64,000 nucleotides of DNA from Chitinophagaceae bacterium (GTDB lineage Bacteria > Bacteroidota > Bacteroidia > Chitinophagales > Chitinophagaceae). Below the pieces are notes generated by a model. The model was not told the DNA's origin. It searched no databases and worked only from the letters and a program-made list of their open reading frames with translations. Made by a program: the position numbers and the translations under genes. This document shows, piece after piece, positions 16,578 through 57,742 of this stretch; positions within the stretch are counted from its first letter, which is position 1; the number at the start of each line of letters is the position of its first letter. The DNA lies in contig CANFLL010000004.1 in NCBI GenBank assembly GCA_947447825.1, forward strand, positions 1-64,000. Direction: 5' to 3'.

Positions 16578-16760
16578 AAGAACAATATCATTCTTAGTAA
16601 GAACAATATCATTCTTGGCAAAAACAATATCATTCTTAGTAAGAATGATATCATTCTTAGTAAGAACAATATCATTCTTGGTAAGAACAAATTCATTCTT
16701 GATAAGAACAATATCATTCTTGGCAAGAACAATATCCTTCTTGGTAAGAACAATATTCAG
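16578..16760. repeat. 21-nt-period palindromic array 1
   Basis: 8 units plus a partial one of AAGAACAATATCATTCTTGGT; one unit has the perfect palindrome AAGAATGATATCATTCTT. Confidence 0.95.
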
Positions 16761-16826: not shown

Positions 16827-17495
16827 ATGTCAGACAACAAACCGCTTATACCATCAACAGATGACGGCAAACATGGTTTTTACATAGTTATTGTGCCATA
16901 CATAAATCTGGCTGCCAATCAATTGCGTTTCAATACGCCCGCAGGAATTCTTTCAGCAATGAACACCAATTATGGGCTTTGGAATCCAAATTGGTTAAAG
17001 TATAAGGATGTTTCTCAGTGCACAAAGCCAGTAATTGAATTAAAGGATAGCTTGGAAATTAAGCTTGACGGTAATATTGATGATGTTTATGGGGATATTC
17101 CCGATTCTGTTTTAACGGCCAACGACAAGGCTGTATTTTTAATTTATGCCCGTAAAGCGGCAAGTTCGGCTGTGGTTTCGCCCATAGCACCGGGTTTTGC
17201 AATGGATACTGCGGGTCATTTGTGGGCTAAGTTTCTATTTCACAACACCGCCACGCCTACTAGTAAGGGTGCGCCAACGGGCAATATTGTTTATTACGAA
17301 ACCTACATTGGTGCAGCGGGCATTGCCAATGCCGATGTGGTGTTTAGCAATGGAAACGTAACATCTTCATCAATACATACTTTTCATTTTGATGAAAGTC
17401 AGGTAGGAAAAACTTGTTACGTGCGCTGTTTTTATCAAACAAAAAAAGACGAACGTAGCCCTGCAAGCGTCATTCTTAGCTTTGTGATAATGTAG
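16827..17495 (+). CDS. Hypothetical protein with FN3/Ig-like C-terminal region
   Basis: 222 aa; helical-type N-term plus beta-rich C-term HTFHFDESQVGKTCYVRCFYQTKKDERSPASVILSFVIM. Confidence 0.75.
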   Translation: MSDNKPLIPSTDDGKHGFYIVIVPYINLAANQLRFNTPAGILSAMNTNYGLWNPNWLKYKDVSQCTKPVIELKDSLEIKLDGNIDDVYGDIPDSVLTANDKAVFLIYARKAASSAVVSPIAPGFAMDTAGHLWAKFLFHNTATPTSKGAPTGNIVYYETYIGAAGIANADVVFSNGNVTSSSIHTFHFDESQVGKTCYVRCFYQTKKDERSPASVILSFVIM

Positions 17496-31277: not shown

Positions 31278-31901
31278 CTAATTTGCCGCCCTTGTTATTG
31301 GTGCACTATAATTTCTTCTTGGATCTGTGCCACAAGCCGCCATTTTAAAAACATAAGGAACAAAACTTGGCAAACCATCAATTTCTAAAGAGTGAGAAGT
31401 AGTTGTTTTTGTTACCCAAACACTTGCATCCGTTGCAGGATGAGGCGTAAACAATATTTCATAAAACTTGGCCTTAGGCATTGCTTTGCAACTAGCCAAC
31501 ACCTTATTACTAGCCTGTTGCGTAACAACATTAAAACCAGTAACCACTCCAAAAGCACCAATTTTAGCTTTTGAAGCCGCTGTGTGCATTCCTGCCGACA
31601 AAATTTTTGTTTCGTCGCCACCGCTAGTCAACTGCACATACGCACACTCCACGTGAATCATACCTTCCAAAATTTTCCGTTCATCATCTTTATCAGACGT
31701 TTGCGTTGGCGTACCATTATGAGCCAATGCTAATTTTCCCTGAAATTTAATCCGCTGTGCCGTAATTACCGTTAACGCAGGCGAAGGCGTTGCGTAGGTT
31801 GCGATACTTGCCGCCATCTTCGTTTCTATACTTTCCACTTCTATCACAAACTCAGGGTCTGTGTAAGTGTCTATCGAATAATTAATTAGAACATCTGCCA
31901 T
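31278..31901 (-). CDS. Hypothetical protein, N-terminal helical region plus C-terminal FN3-like domain (paralog of 56802-57422)
   Basis: LTSGGDETKILSAGMHTAASKAKIGAFGVVTGFNVVTQQASNKVL...SFVPYVFKMAACGTDPRRNYSAPITRAAN. Confidence 0.85.
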   Translation of the reverse strand: MADVLINYSIDTYTDPEFVIEVESIETKMAASIATYATPSPALTVITAQRIKFQGKLALAHNGTPTQTSDKDDERKILEGMIHVECAYVQLTSGGDETKILSAGMHTAASKAKIGAFGVVTGFNVVTQQASNKVLASCKAMPKAKFYEILFTPHPATDASVWVTKTTTSHSLEIDGLPSFVPYVFKMAACGTDPRRNYSAPITRAAN

Positions 31902-31989: not shown

Positions 31990-32178
31990 ATTTACTTGAT
32001 GACGAAAACCAAAAACTTCATCACTTAATCGAAAAAGTTCATCATAAAAAACATTTTCTTCATCAAATAATTATGGAACTTCATCAAAAAAACCAAAAAC
32101 TTCATCAAGTATTTGGAAAACTTCATCAAGAAAGTCAAATACTTCATCACTTTTTTCAATTACTTGATGAAGTTTTTG
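31990..32178. repeat. 21-nt-period palindromic array 2
   Basis: 9 units of 21 nt centred on ACTTCATCAAG(T); first and last units read the opposite way (TTGATGA). Confidence 0.93.
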
Positions 32179-39139: not shown

Positions 39140-40882
39140 ATGCACTCAAAACACCTCAAGCAACTCTGTCTCATTACTGTTCTACTATTAGGAAGTACGC
39201 TGTTGTCGGTGTTTTTAATTCTTTTATCCCTCGATAGAAATGAACTTATTGCGCATATCATCCGCCTAACCAATAAACCCTATTTGCTCAATCTATTATC
39301 TAATAAAATACTCACTCCGCAAAAGTTTACAATCCTAAGATACGGTTTGCAGGTCTCAATTATTCTTGATTGTATAACAATTGCCTTATTGTATCGTTTT
39401 AGAAATGGGGTATTGTCGTTACTGAATTTTATTTTTTCTACCATTAAAAATTGTTTTGGTGCTATCAGCCTTGCGCATAATACAAGAAAAGAAAATATAC
39501 TTCTACTCATCATACTGGCAATTGTATTTTTAAAAGGATTGTATTACATTCTATCATTCGATTTACAATATGATGAAATGTGGAGTTACAATTACTTCAC
39601 TTCTCGCCCCGTTTATCTTATTTTCTTTAGTTATAATAACTATCCGATTTACGAACTAAGTACGCACCTGTTTAAATGGCTGCCTTTTTCTATGAAGGTG
39701 AACCTACGATTACCCCCTTTTTTGATGGGGATATTTTGCATTTTCGTGTTATTTGGTTGCACAAAAAAGATTACGTCACACTTTCTCACCGCCCTTGCAA
39801 GCGTCGTATTATTTGCTTGCATGCCCGTTTCGGTGTTTTACATGTTGTATGCACGAGGGGTAATGTTCGAACTTTTCTTTGCCGTTACAGCATTTTTTAG
39901 TCTTGTATTTCTTGTAAAAACTCAGCAAAAGAAAAAGTATTTGTTTCTATATGTTGCCTCAAACGTGTTAGGAGCGTATTCCATGCCTACTCATTTGTAT
40001 TTCTGGGCAGTGTTTTCTTTGGTATCATTTCTTTATTTTATCCTTTATCAAAAATCAGTAATAAAGTCTATCTTACTAAGCAATTTTCTAATCCTAGCCT
40101 TAATCGTATTGTGTTATTTGCCAGTATTTTTTGGCTCTGGATTGTCGTTTGTTTTTGGTGCACTTACAGATACCTCTCAATCCACAAATCTATTTGCCAA
40201 CACAATTGCTTACACCAAAGGCATCAATAACTTCTTTACTGGCAATGTTTATGGTTTGGTAATTCTATCTTTTATGTCTTTTGTCTTTTTGTTTTTATAT
40301 AAAACAGCGGATTACAAATACCTATTTACATTGCTACTGGTTAACCTATTTATCTTTTTGCCAAGTATAATCTATCTATTTCAACGTGTATTTATCCCCG
40401 AAAGAGCTTTGGCTTTTATTGGCTTAGTAATTCCTTTTTTAGGATGCACGCTATTTTATTTTACAAAAAATTCTCTCAAACAATATCAACAGTATTGCAT
40501 TCTTGCAATTGTTTTTATTGCTGGTTGCGCCATCAGTCATCGGCATGAATACCTAAATTGGAGTGTTCAAAAAGACAAGGATGCCATTAAGCTTTCTACC
40601 CTTTTTTTAAAGAATAAAATAGAGACTTGCTATGATAATTCGCCCACTTCCGAGTTCTATTATTTCTATCCAGCTTTAGAATATTATTTTAGTCAGCAGA
40701 AAAAAACTATCAACTTTAATATGGCGGAACCTAATAGTCAGCGATATAAACCATTACTTTCCACAGATAATTTTGATTGCATTATAGATAGCATTTATGC
40801 CAATGAAGAACCAAGAAGAGTAAAGTATAAAAAGATATTTACTGATAATGCTTATGGATTTAAAGTGTGGCGGTTGAAATAA
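39140..40882 (+). CDS. Multi-pass membrane protein, GT39/ArnT-like glycosyltransferase
   Basis: LQYDEMWSYNYFTSRP motif after TM helices; KVNLRLPPFLMG. Confidence 0.75.
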   Translation: MHSKHLKQLCLITVLLLGSTLLSVFLILLSLDRNELIAHIIRLTNKPYLLNLLSNKILTPQKFTILRYGLQVSIILDCITIALLYRFRNGVLSLLNFIFSTIKNCFGAISLAHNTRKENILLLIILAIVFLKGLYYILSFDLQYDEMWSYNYFTSRPVYLIFFSYNNYPIYELSTHLFKWLPFSMKVNLRLPPFLMGIFCIFVLFGCTKKITSHFLTALASVVLFACMPVSVFYMLYARGVMFELFFAVTAFFSLVFLVKTQQKKKYLFLYVASNVLGAYSMPTHLYFWAVFSLVSFLYFILYQKSVIKSILLSNFLILALIVLCYLPVFFGSGLSFVFGALTDTSQSTNLFANTIAYTKGINNFFTGNVYGLVILSFMSFVFLFLYKTADYKYLFTLLLVNLFIFLPSIIYLFQRVFIPERALAFIGLVIPFLGCTLFYFTKNSLKQYQQYCILAIVFIAGCAISHRHEYLNWSVQKDKDAIKLSTLFLKNKIETCYDNSPTSEFYYFYPALEYYFSQQKKTINFNMAEPNSQRYKPLLSTDNFDCIIDSIYANEEPRRVKYKKIFTDNAYGFKVWRLK

Positions 40883-41132
40883 GGCTAACCAAATGCGACA
40901 AAAGCCTAAGCAAATGCCGCATAAGGTTGAACAAATATGATATAAGGTTAACCAAATGCGACAAAAGCCTAAGCAAATGCCGCATAAGGTTGAACAAATA
41001 TGATATAAGGTTAACCAAATGCGACGAAAGGCTTCCCAAATGCCGCATAAGGTTGAACAAATGCGACAAAAGTTTAGCCTAATGCCACATAATGTTAACC
41101 TAATGCCACATAAGGTTAGCCCAATACGACAC
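40881..41132. repeat. 21-nt-period array 3
   Basis: 12 exact 21-nt units (AAGGTTAACCAAATGCGACAA type); a 63-nt trimer is duplicated (40881-40943 vs 40944-41006, about 1 mismatch). Confidence 0.95.
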
Positions 41133-44555: not shown

Positions 44556-45839
44556 TTACCCCACTATCACTAAGTAATAATTCTTCTTGCCTTTTTGCAC
44601 CAAAATATATTTGCTTTGTAGTAAATCTTCTGCCGCAAGAGTTGCTTTCTCCGCACCAATCTTTACCTTATTTACAGATAGTCCACCGGCCTGCAGCATT
44701 TTCTTTGCTTCACCCTTACTTGGAAATATCTGAGAATCGGCCAAGAAAGAAACCAAATCATATCCTGCCGCCAACTGCTCTTTGCTGATGTTTACCGTAG
44801 GCACACCATCCAACACTTGCAGCAATTGTTCCTCGTTAAGCGATTGCAAAACAGACGCTGTATCATTGCTAAATAAAATCTCGCTTGCTTTCACAGCAAA
44901 ATCATACTCTTCTCTGCCGTGTACAAACACACTTAGTTCTTCGGCAAGCTTCTTTTGCAATAATCGTTGATGTGGTGCGGCTTCATGTTCAGCTATCAAA
45001 GCATCGATGGTTTCTTTAGATAAAAGTGTAAACAATTTTATCCATTTCTTCGCATCATCATCGCTTGCATTAAGCCAGAACTGGTAAAACTGATAAGGAC
45101 TTGTTTTCTTGGCATCCAACCAGATATTGCCTTTTTCTGTTTTGCCAAACTTGCCGCCATCGGCTTTTGTAACCAACGGACAGGTGAAGGCATACGCTTC
45201 GCCGCCCATCTTTCTGCGTATCAGTTCGGTGCCGGTGGTGATGTTTCCCCATTGGTCACTACCGCCCATTTGCAGTTTGCAGTTCTTGTTTTTATACAGC
45301 CAGTAAAAATCGTAACCCTGAATCAGTTGGTACGTAAACTCCGTGAAGCTGATGCCGCTTTCGCCTTCAATACGTTTGCGCACGCTATCCTTACTCATCA
45401 TATAGTTTACGGTAATATGCTTGCCCACATCGCGGATGAAACTCAGAAAGTCGATTTCCTTAAACCAATCGTAGTTGTTTACCATTTCGGCGCAGTTAGG
45501 TTTGGAAGCATCAAAGTCCAGAAACTTTTCCAGTTGCTTCTTCACTCCAGCTTGGTTGTGCAGCAGAATATCTTCGCTCAATAAATTCCTTTCCTCACTT
45601 TTTCCGCTTGGGTCGCCCACCATTCCGGTAGCGCCACCCACCAAAGCGATGGGCTTATGACCAGCCTTTTGCAAATGCACCAACAACAATATCGGCACCA
45701 AACTACCAATGTGTAAACTATCCGAAGTGGGGTCGAAGCCAATATAGGCACTCGTCATTTCCTTGTTTAATTGCTCTTCTGTGCCCGGCATTATATCCTG
45801 CAACATGCCTCTCCAACGCAGTTCTTCTATTAATGTCAT
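44556..45839 (-). CDS. tyrS: Tyrosyl-tRNA synthetase
   Basis: [31 protein letters not shown] (KMSKS-like region). Start moved from 45857 to MTLIEEL. Confidence 0.95.
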
Positions 45840-45979
45840 CCTAATTATTTGCAACAAAAGTAACTACTTAGGCATTTCGGTGATTAATTGAAAAAAATAG
45901 ATATTGAGGGATGAGGGCGTTAATGCTATGTAGTTTTATATGATTAATGTTTGGCTTTGCGATAACCTGATTGAAATAG

Positions 45980-46210
45980 GAACCGGTTGAACATGTTTAA
46001 AAAAAGCTTTTTTAGCGTAATGTTCAGTTGAACGAGGTTTGCGTGAGGGCTTACGAAACTTCCGTTCAACTGAACTTATCTTCCGTGAGGGCTTACCGAG
46101 TTTCCGTTCAGCCGAACGAGGTTTCCGTAAAGGCTTACGGAACTTCCGTACGACTGAACATTTCCTCCGTAAGAGCTTACCGAACTTCCGTTCAATTGAA
46201 CTTATCTTCC
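45980..46210. repeat. 21-nt-period palindromic array 4 (9 clear units 46022-46210, 2 degenerate units before)
   Basis: Alternating GTTCA[RY]TGAAC and GTAAG[AG]CTTAC palindromes; degenerate units carry AACCGGTT and AAAAAGCTTTTT palindromes. Confidence 0.95.
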
Positions 46211-46313
46211 GAAAGGCAGTATAAACTTAAAAACTAAGTCTATATTAATGAATATGATTGATTAAAAGTTTCTCTTTTCAATCAAAAATTCATCTAGCTA
46301 AAATTGAAAGCTT

Positions 46314-46550
46314 CTAATCTTTTATTTCTTCAAACTCAATGTATTCATCATTGGTAGATGTGGTGGAGCTTTTAGGCGGAACAGTTGATTGTTGGGTAGA
46401 TTGTGTTTTGGTAAACTGTTGTTGCTGTTCGTTCATTTGCGAAACGGTGGTTTTCATTTTGCTAACGGTTCTAGCAATAGGTATTACCAACTCGAAAATG
46501 AATCGGTATAATAAATATATAGCTACACCCCAGAATAAATCTTTTATCAT
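46314..46550 (-). CDS. Small membrane protein, DUF4834-like
   Basis: 78 aa; DLFWGVAIYLLYRFIFELVIPIARTVSKMK, C-term NDEYIEFEEIKD. Confidence 0.7.
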   Translation of the reverse strand: MIKDLFWGVAIYLLYRFIFELVIPIARTVSKMKTTVSQMNEQQQQFTKTQSTQQSTVPPKSSTTSTNDEYIEFEEIKD

Positions 46551-46771
46551 AAGGCGGTAAAGATAATATTGAAGATTACCAAATTATTACATTTTATGTT
46601 ACTGTTAAGAATTTTAGTTATTACTCAGGATATTTTAACCACAAAATGAAAAATGAAGGATTTAATATTTCGGGTTTTATATTTTACGGATTAGTAAAGT
46701 GAATAGAAATTTAGATAATCATTAGAACCCTTTTACGAAAGTTTTTACCTTTCAGGACGTTAATACCACAT

Positions 46772-47584
46772 TCAACCTGTAACTGTCTTTCGATAGATGC
46801 TAACAAGTGTGTCCACTGCCTTTTTACCTTCAACGCCCAGATTGATTGTAAAGTTATTTACGTATAAGTCAATGTGTTTACGCATTACATCATCACTCAT
46901 TTCTTGGGCATGACATCGGATATAATCTGAAAGTTCTGGATAATTAGCAAAAGCAAACTCTACACTTTTGCGGATAAGACCATCCACCTTTACTGCAAGC
47001 TCTTTGCCAATTCGGTTATGCGCCACAATACCTCCCAACGGAATAGGCACCTTTAATTGCTGCTCCCAATAGTTGCCCAAGTCCATCAATTTCACTAAGC
47101 CTTTATCTTGATAGGTAAACCTGTTTTCGTGAATAATAACCCCAGCATCTACTTTTTCAGATAAAACAGCCTCTTCAATCTCATTAAAAACTAGAAACTT
47201 TTTGTTATTGGCATTAGGAAAAGCCATCGAGAAAAGCAAATGAGCAGTAGTGTTAACGCCTGGTACTGCAATGGTAAAATTGTTTACCGTTTTTTGCAAT
47301 TGGGCAGGATCGATTGCTTTTTTACTTATTAATAATGGTCCAACACCTTTGCCTAAAGCACCACCACTATTCAACAATTGATACTGTGAAAGCACCAATG
47401 GAAGTACGCCATAACTAATTTTGGAGAGGTCTAGTTTGCCCTCTCTTGCCCATTCATTAAGGGTTTGCACGTCTTCCAACTGCACCTCAAACCTGAGACC
47501 TTCGGTATCTATTTTATTATTTACGAGGGCATCGAAAATAAAAGTGTCGTTAGGGCAAGGAGAAAAGCCAAGGGAAAGTGTCAT
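46772..47584 (-). CDS. mqnD: 1,4-dihydroxy-6-naphthoate synthase (futalosine pathway)
   Basis: LGFSPCPNDTFIFDALVNNKIDTEGL; VDAGVIIHENRFTY. Confidence 0.93.
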   Translation of the reverse strand: MTLSLGFSPCPNDTFIFDALVNNKIDTEGLRFEVQLEDVQTLNEWAREGKLDLSKISYGVLPLVLSQYQLLNSGGALGKGVGPLLISKKAIDPAQLQKTVNNFTIAVPGVNTTAHLLFSMAFPNANNKKFLVFNEIEEAVLSEKVDAGVIIHENRFTYQDKGLVKLMDLGNYWEQQLKVPIPLGGIVAHNRIGKELAVKVDGLIRKSVEFAFANYPELSDYIRCHAQEMSDDVMRKHIDLYVNNFTINLGVEGKKAVDTLVSIYRKTVTG

Positions 47585-56801: not shown

Positions 56802-57422
56802 TTAGTTCGCAGCTCTCGTTATTGGTGCGCAATAGTTTCTTCTTCTATCAGATCCACGAGCTGCCATTTTAAATACATAAGGAACAAAGCTTGGTAAATT
56901 TTCTATTTCTATGGAATGACTGGTAGATGTTTCAGAAATCCACACACTTGTAGCTATTGCTGGATAAGCGGTGTACAATACTTCATAGAAACCAGCTTTT
57001 GGCATAGGATTGCAACTGCACAACACTTTATTACTTGCTTCTTGTGTTACTACTTTAAAATTAGTTACTACTGCAAATACCCCAATTTTAGCTTTAGAAC
57101 CTGCTGTGTGCATTCCTGATGATAATATCTTGGTTTCATCACCACCACTTGTAAGTTGAATGTACGCACCCAATACGTGCATTTGCCCTTCTATAACAGC
57201 CCTTTTATCATTCTTATCAGAAGTGTCTGTTGGTGTTCCATCTTTAGCCTTTGCCACAGCAGTCTGAAACAATATACGCTCAGTAGTTATTGCTGCAACT
57301 GCGGGCGATGGTGTTGGAAAGCTTGAGTTGGGTGAAAGATGCGTCTCAATACTTTGCACTTCAGTTATTAATCCATCGTCAGTGTAAACGTCTCTTGAAT
57401 AATCAACCAGTACTTGTGACAT
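56802..57422 (-). CDS. Hypothetical protein with FN3-like C-term domain (paralog of 31278-31901)
   Basis: LTSGGDETKILSSGMHTAGSKAKIGVFAVVTNFKVVTQEASNKVL...SFVPYVFKMAARGSDRRRNYCAPITRAAN. Confidence 0.85.
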   Translation of the reverse strand: MSQVLVDYSRDVYTDDGLITEVQSIETHLSPNSSFPTPSPAVAAITTERILFQTAVAKAKDGTPTDTSDKNDKRAVIEGQMHVLGAYIQLTSGGDETKILSSGMHTAGSKAKIGVFAVVTNFKVVTQEASNKVLCSCNPMPKAGFYEVLYTAYPAIATSVWISETSTSHSIEIENLPSFVPYVFKMAARGSDRRRNYCAPITRAAN

Positions 57423-57532: not shown

Positions 57533-57742
57533 ATAATCACCAATATTATCAATATCTGTATCAAGATTATCATAATCGGTATACCGATGGAAACAATCTG
57601 TATAAAGATTGCCATCATCTGTATACAGATAGTCACCATATTCATACAGATGATGGCAATCGGTTGAAAGATATTGATGATATTGATACCGATTATCGCC
57701 ATCGGTATGAAGATATCCATAATCGGTAAGCCGATATTGGCT
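57533..57742. repeat. 21-nt-period palindromic array 5
   Basis: 10 units of 21 nt, 14-nt palindromic core plus 7-nt spacer; perfect cores ATCGGTATACCGAT and ATCTGTATACAGAT. Confidence 0.95.

Follow-up and report, generated by a model that had tools for sequence, protein, structure and literature searches.

What is the tandem array of alternating palindromes that lies upstream of the tyrosyl-tRNA synthetase gene (tyrS) in a genome of the Chitinophagaceae: a regulator of tyrS, the relic of a gene that once adjoined it, or a copy of something more widespread? The array is number 4 in the window, i.e. the complete stretch of 64,000 nucleotides that was analysed. The genome that carries the window is referred to as G000, and the other species of the genus that recur below as G002, G003, G004, G006 and G007. 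The features around the array are:

44556-45839, minus strand: tyrS, tyrosyl-tRNA synthetase (Pfam PF00579, E=8.9e-81)
45855-45862, minus strand: putative tyrS -7 element (TACTTTTG, i.e. TAnnTTTG), retained in 12 of 12 species, array or none
45980-46021, no strand: degenerate leader, holding AACCGGTT and AAAAAGCTTTTT; palindromes not kept in sister species
46022-46210, no strand: array 4, nine 21-nt units in the order ABABABABA (direct reading, TRF)
46211-46222, no strand: truncated B unit (GAAAGG...) that ends array 4 (unit table)
46314-46550, minus strand: 78-aa gene on the far side of array 4, with a weak resemblance to DUF4834 (E=0.0063, below cut-off)
46772-47584, minus strand: VitK2_biosynth (MqnD-like) gene, near tyrS in G000, 32 kb off and inverted in G004

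Each unit of array 4 consists of a 12-nt palindrome, GT(N8)AC, and a 9-nt spacer that in most units ends in TTCC. The palindromes are of two types, A (GTTCAnnTGAAC) and B (GTRAGnGCTTAC), which have a GT....AC frame in common and differ in three inner pairs on both arms, with the dyad preserved. The strict 21-nt units alternate between the two types and thus produce the 42-nt super-period that a first-pass annotation of this DNA had described: the match is 0.71 at lag 42 vs 0.49 at lag 21, and TRF gives periods of 42 and 84. The self-reverse-complementarity of the array is higher than that of a column-permutation null (z=4.2; 0 of 100 permutations). The same annotation had the array run from 45980 to 46210, start about 140 nt upstream of tyrS and open with two units that hold perfect palindromes in phase. 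The clean part is 46022-46210, extended by the truncated B unit to about 46222, and its first unit lies 183 nt upstream of the tyrS ATG (45839); the distance of 140 nt applies only when counted from the degenerate leader at 45980-46021. Within that leader, AACCGGTT is one base out of phase, unchanged in G004 and replaced by AACAGTTG in G003, and AAAAAGCTTTTT becomes ATAACTCTTTTT in G004 and ATAACGCTTTTT in G003. Because the sequence varies between sister species and AACCGGTT is off phase, both leader palindromes are best taken as chance occurrences in AT-rich DNA, and the claim of two in-phase leading units was not confirmed.

The region upstream of tyrS was compared in 12 species of the genus. 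Arrays of the array-4 family were found in three of these (G000, G003 and G004), the tyrS genes of which are 96-100% identical; at this place G006 carries an array that is unrelated and repeats every 64 nt, G007 a short one that is likewise unrelated, and the remaining seven species none. The motif CAAAnnTA (TAnnTTTG on the tyrS strand), which from established knowledge of Bacteroidota promoters we take to be a promoter element, is present just before the tyrS ATG in all 12. With the promoter motif in 12 of 12 species and the array family in 3 of 12, the suggestion that the array regulates tyrS was not supported, and array 4 probably has no required regulatory role at tyrS, where it sits upstream of an intact promoter. 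No small Ig-like gene adjoins the array in G000, G003 or G004, as had been noted for the window, nor do the sister species examined carry such a gene at tyrS that would make the array a relic; the tyrS array is therefore read as a dispersed copy and not as the remains of a local gene. The description as an orphan array stands, as the same family precedes a small Ig/Fn3-like gene elsewhere, in corresponding positions of G004, G003 and G002 and in decayed form in G000.

The arrays at tyrS differ in composition between the three species: the alternation is retained in G004 (ABABABABABA) and not in G003, where the order BAABAABA gives a 63-nt super-period. On the side of the array away from tyrS, similar sequence follows in G000 and G003, including the 78-aa gene, which has a similar sequence in the same place in G003. 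In G004 this side is occupied by an unrelated gene, P0008, that was absent from five other genomes searched for it. We place a rearrangement junction of G004 within or at the tyrS array on the basis of the alignment, because array 4 ends within a B unit where the flanks of G000 and G004 part (the alignment stops at 46216, inside the truncated unit), and because the G004 flank is P0008, with mqnD displaced and inverted. The places at tyrS (G004) and rhaT (G004/G006) are suggestive of arrays as synteny breakpoints; for a systematic test the cases were too scarce (2 array-bearing gaps vs 23 array-free ones; 29 collinear gaps).

A search of 13 genomes with array 4 as query recovered members of its family in G000, G002, G003, G004 and G006. 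The recovered places include: the gap between gltP and dedA, an orthologous place shared by four species, the flanks of which align on both sides; the region upstream of metG in G004, which lacks such an array in G000 and in whichever other species could be read at metG; a position beside rhaT in G004 and G006; and the region upstream of a small gene, P0013/P0014, in G004, G003 and G002, with a decayed version in G000. The match between array 4 and the array of the P0013 gene amounts to 152 bits (80%). The latter array reads BABABABA in G004, all A in G003 and all B in G002, and is decayed in G000; the A/B alternation, though retained at most places of the family, is thus not obligatory. Over 128 units from 15 places, the palindrome arms have a mean conservation of 0.94 vs 0.63 for the first five spacer positions. 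Part of this difference follows from the selection of units, which were retained for resembling the A or B palindrome; the TTCC at the spacer end, which was not selected for, shows a conservation of 0.80-0.97.

Several places point to turnover of array sequences. Upstream of G000:C11:41433 (L284) an array with a TGAGTCA core still has spacers of the array-4 type (AAGATAAGTTCA, TGAACTTATCTTCCG), a hybrid that may represent one array family turning into another. The corresponding gap at G000 C1:122604 and G004 C5:48457 holds entirely different array sequences, and the same is seen at G000 C1:67615 and G004 C5:108, where the gap is collinear on one side only; the comparison suggests replacement in place.

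Arrays of this kind are common in the genus. They were counted in stretches that amount to 441 kb for G000 and 824 kb for G004 (1.26 Mb; about 9.5% and 17% of the genomes), which yielded 86 intergenic arrays (28 and 58, respectively) with a median length of about 180-190 bp, i.e. one array per 14-16 kb and by estimate roughly 300 per genome. Apart from a heptamer class, lag peaks were restricted to 21, 42, 63 and 84, the best lags of the 86 arrays being chiefly 21, 41, 42 and 63, and shuffled DNA gave no lag peaks. Self-reverse-complementarity at p<=0.05 was recorded for 49 of the 86 by a test that misses some. The location of the arrays tracks the share of intergenic bases, without preference for convergent gaps or 3' ends, and a sense-strand G-U bias is absent (23 vs 19); the location and the absent bias together point to the level of DNA rather than of RNA. 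No such arrays were seen in 541 kb of DNA surrounding tyrS in 80 Bacteroidota or in 200 kb from six other genera (0.74 Mb in all); judged by tyrS, the closest named relatives are Chitinophagaceae, for instance Sediminibacterium, at about 77-80% identity. A phage or plasmid origin was rejected, as neither array 4 nor P0013 had a match in phages, plasmids or viral contigs. Two other kinds of repeat were encountered: a separate, non-palindromic heptamer class (periods 7, 14, 21, 28 and 35; G000:C104:743-1837, C1:17932, C1:168711 and others) that is also present in other genera, and a palindromic tandem repeat of 27/54 nt close to tyrS in Chitinophagaceae nzgw143 (L081, 5029-5136), perhaps an analogous array with a different spacing. 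The window itself contains, besides array 4:

16578-16756, no strand: array 1, directly upstream of the small Fn3-type gene at 16827-17495
32005-32149, no strand: array 2, directly upstream of the small Fn3-type gene at 31278-31901 (minus strand)
40875-41131, no strand: array 3, 21/63-nt, an orphan of the same class, related to the array that precedes the Fn3-type gene at G000:C6:23234 (125 bits, 75%)
57541-57630, no strand: array 5, directly upstream of the small Fn3-type gene at 56802-57422 (minus strand)

The genes that follow the arrays encode an unnamed group of small proteins. Neither P0013 nor the window's own P0001, P0002 and P0004 are matched significantly in Pfam, and NCBIfam gave nothing for those that were tried. 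AlphaFold models for both subfamilies (mean pLDDT 88 and 83) combine a bundle of three helices at the N-terminus with an Fn3-like sandwich at the C-terminus, for which Foldseek retrieved Fn3-type domains (best E 2.5e-4 and 2.9e-5); the domain arrangement in the first model is uncertain because of its low pTM (0.49). An array was found directly upstream of 26 of the 35 testable small Fn3-type genes in G000 and G004, vs 9.8% of all genes (odds ratio 27, p=3.6e-18). The array-free genes include two subfamilies, L261/L271 and L285/L286/L288; L280 has a decayed array upstream, yet was scored as array-free. Matches to one of the 26 gene-linked arrays were obtained for 18 of 77 orphan arrays, where column-permuted arrays lead one to expect less than one. 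Closely similar paralogous proteins can be preceded by arrays that differ in sequence (L290/L292 and L293/L296).

With respect to the same 26 genes, the motif TAnnTTTG occurs between array and ATG in none, vs 25% of genes (p=0.0014), and several have AATAAGACTACTTTCAAC in this position, perhaps a different kind of promoter. Near position 108660 of G004:C3 an array adjoins the gene for a truncated protein of 79 aa that is related to the small Fn3-type proteins; gene and array are probably a pair in decay.

The period of the arrays is coupled to the class of protein. The short proteins (about 205-235 aa) have lag 21 in 25 of 26 upstream arrays, the exception being a 259-aa protein with 43. For the longer proteins (256-361 aa) 10 of 11 facing arrays have lag 41-42 and a lag-21 match <0.5, in a set that mixes the P0017 family (321 aa), which accounts for six of these cases, with genes picked for facing an array. 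That array period goes with protein class suggests a partnership between DNA and protein. Within the P0017 family, a 41- or 42-nt array is found directly upstream in six of the six members with readable upstream DNA. These six members are:

G004: C3:62971 (L301), C3:11323 (L303), C55 (L304), C116 (L307) and C4:20785 (L308)
G000: C36 (L302)

With moderate confidence we read array 4 as an orphan, dispersed copy of a protein-paired palindromic satellite that functions as a phased DNA-binding tract. A copy of its family does lie directly upstream of a small 3-helix plus Fn3-type gene, namely P0013, with counterparts in G003, G002 and G000. The complete form would comprise 21-bp palindromic units (a 12-bp GT....AC palindrome and a TTCC-ended spacer) directly upstream of the 3-helix/Fn3-like gene, and copies without the gene would have spread to other intergenic places, such as that upstream of the tyrS promoter; at each place, units would be homogenised and replaced by unequal exchange. 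Each palindrome would be a site for a two-fold symmetric binder acting on DNA, and a step of 21 bp, being two helical turns, would bring every site to the same face of the helix, so that an array could serve as a tract for protein assembly. With regard to an iteron- or parS-like tract of phased protein-binding sites, what the arrays show is 21-bp phasing and dyads; the binding sites themselves are putative. Protein binding, the binder's identity and the purpose of the assembly are what we infer; the assembling protein would most likely belong to the paired small-protein family. Against this speaks that the combination of helices and an Fn3-like domain is not among the recognised DNA-binding folds. 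It is also unlikely that the adjacent protein simply reads the array sequence, because closely similar paralogues can have different arrays, and recognition may proceed by shape or via another factor. No clean empty site that defines an insertion boundary was found. More tentatively, the whole may be a new two-part genetic system of a single Chitinophagaceae genus, in which families of small helical-bundle plus Fn3-like proteins each have their own palindrome array with a protein-set period, and in which orphan copies would be seeded for the assembly of the own or a related protein.

The alternative that survives best, and that we consider possible though clearly less probable, is a passive satellite without binder or function, which would expand through slippage and hairpin-templated repair and owe its spread to recombination. 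The rapid turnover in place of the P0013-type array, which differs between G004, G003, G002 and G000, and the unrelated arrays that occupy the same gap in different species are what it would produce; it leaves unexplained that one protein group has arrays at 26 of 35 genes, that period goes with protein class and that palindrome arms are better conserved than spacers. An RNA-level element (either a structured leader or, within the 3' region of the upstream gene, a hairpin that stabilises or terminates the transcript) is unlikely. The predicted RNA fold is strong (z=-6.5), but any palindromic array should fold well by construction, and a terminator-like site is missing, as are the convergent/3' preference and the sense-strand G-U bias; the gene-linked arrays might be transcribed as leaders, given that no TAnnTTTG separates them from the ATG.

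Even less probable is a non-autonomous element of the REP/BIME type, mobilised by RAYT (an IS200/IS605-like tyrosine transposase). Extragenic palindromes, dispersal and alternating palindrome types recall BIMEs (PMC2817692), and Y1 transposase genes occur in 7 of 7 genomes searched. However, three of the four Y1 places examined (L231-L233) lack 21/42-nt arrays and two of these have 16-17-nt repeats of their own, the sole Y1 place with an array (L230, in G007) has one of 41 nt, the unit listings contain no common GTAG or CGTC tag, and the paired gene is of the Fn3 type and no transposase. The 16-17-nt repeats beside the Y1 genes of G000 and G003 (L232, L233) are of the AATCTGGAGGCAATTC type, unrelated to the 21-nt arrays, and possibly the REP family of the genus. 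A slightly smaller chance still is given to an upstream regulatory element of tyrS: three species with near-identical tyrS have the array in this position, but it is missing or unrelated in the other nine, which keep the promoter motif, and the family, without Rfam match, stands beside many other genes (dedA, metG, rhaT). A short coding repeat (21 nt = 7 codons) is very unlikely, since the 60-115-aa open frames through several copies come for free with a period divisible by three, strand and frame vary among copies of the family, and the class includes 41- and 43-nt arrays.

How do the arrays relate to known systems? A tyrS leader RNA or T-box was rejected, in view of the absence of an Rfam match and of conservation of the array at tyrS across the genus, and no intrinsic terminator (a GC-rich hairpin followed by a T run) is present at 45800-46800. 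The regular short repeats and their palindromic character resemble CRISPR, but the spacers are not unique, with ATTTCTTCC and GGAACTTCC recurring across units and places, the unit has 21 nt, and no cas gene was recognised among the genes beside array 4. REP/BIME elements with RAYT (TnpA-REP) are extragenic palindromes with alternating tandem types, many dispersed copies and a linked gene family (PMC2817692, PMC3733652). The class described here likewise consists of extragenic palindromes in many dispersed copies; it differs by a strict 21-bp step, many unrelated sequence families and the lack of a GTAG/CGTC tag, and by a linked gene that encodes a 3-helix plus Fn3-like protein, whereas the Y1 genes mostly have other repeats or none.

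Plasmid iterons and partition-site arrays consist of direct repeats that are spaced by about two helical turns and allow cooperative protein binding; in our case there are hundreds of chromosomal arrays with many sequences, and no Rep or Par gene was recognised beside the array. We rate the class as belonging to no known kind, and open-access papers, as distinct from subscription journals and preprints, contained no description of such arrays. Their density, their restriction to the genus among the genera sampled, the unnamed protein group and the period link are hard to explain by ordinary repeat expansion, and if the pairing is functional it would be a new kind of bacterial repeat-protein partnership. 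Eukaryotic centromeric satellites are characterised by higher-order repeats, local homogenisation and sequence turnover at fixed positions. By analogy, the arrays share higher-order repeats, homogenisation and turnover in place with them; they differ in being bacterial, short, intergenic and linked to small-protein genes, and would offer bacterial material to learn how a satellite retains its period and its place even as its sequence is renewed.
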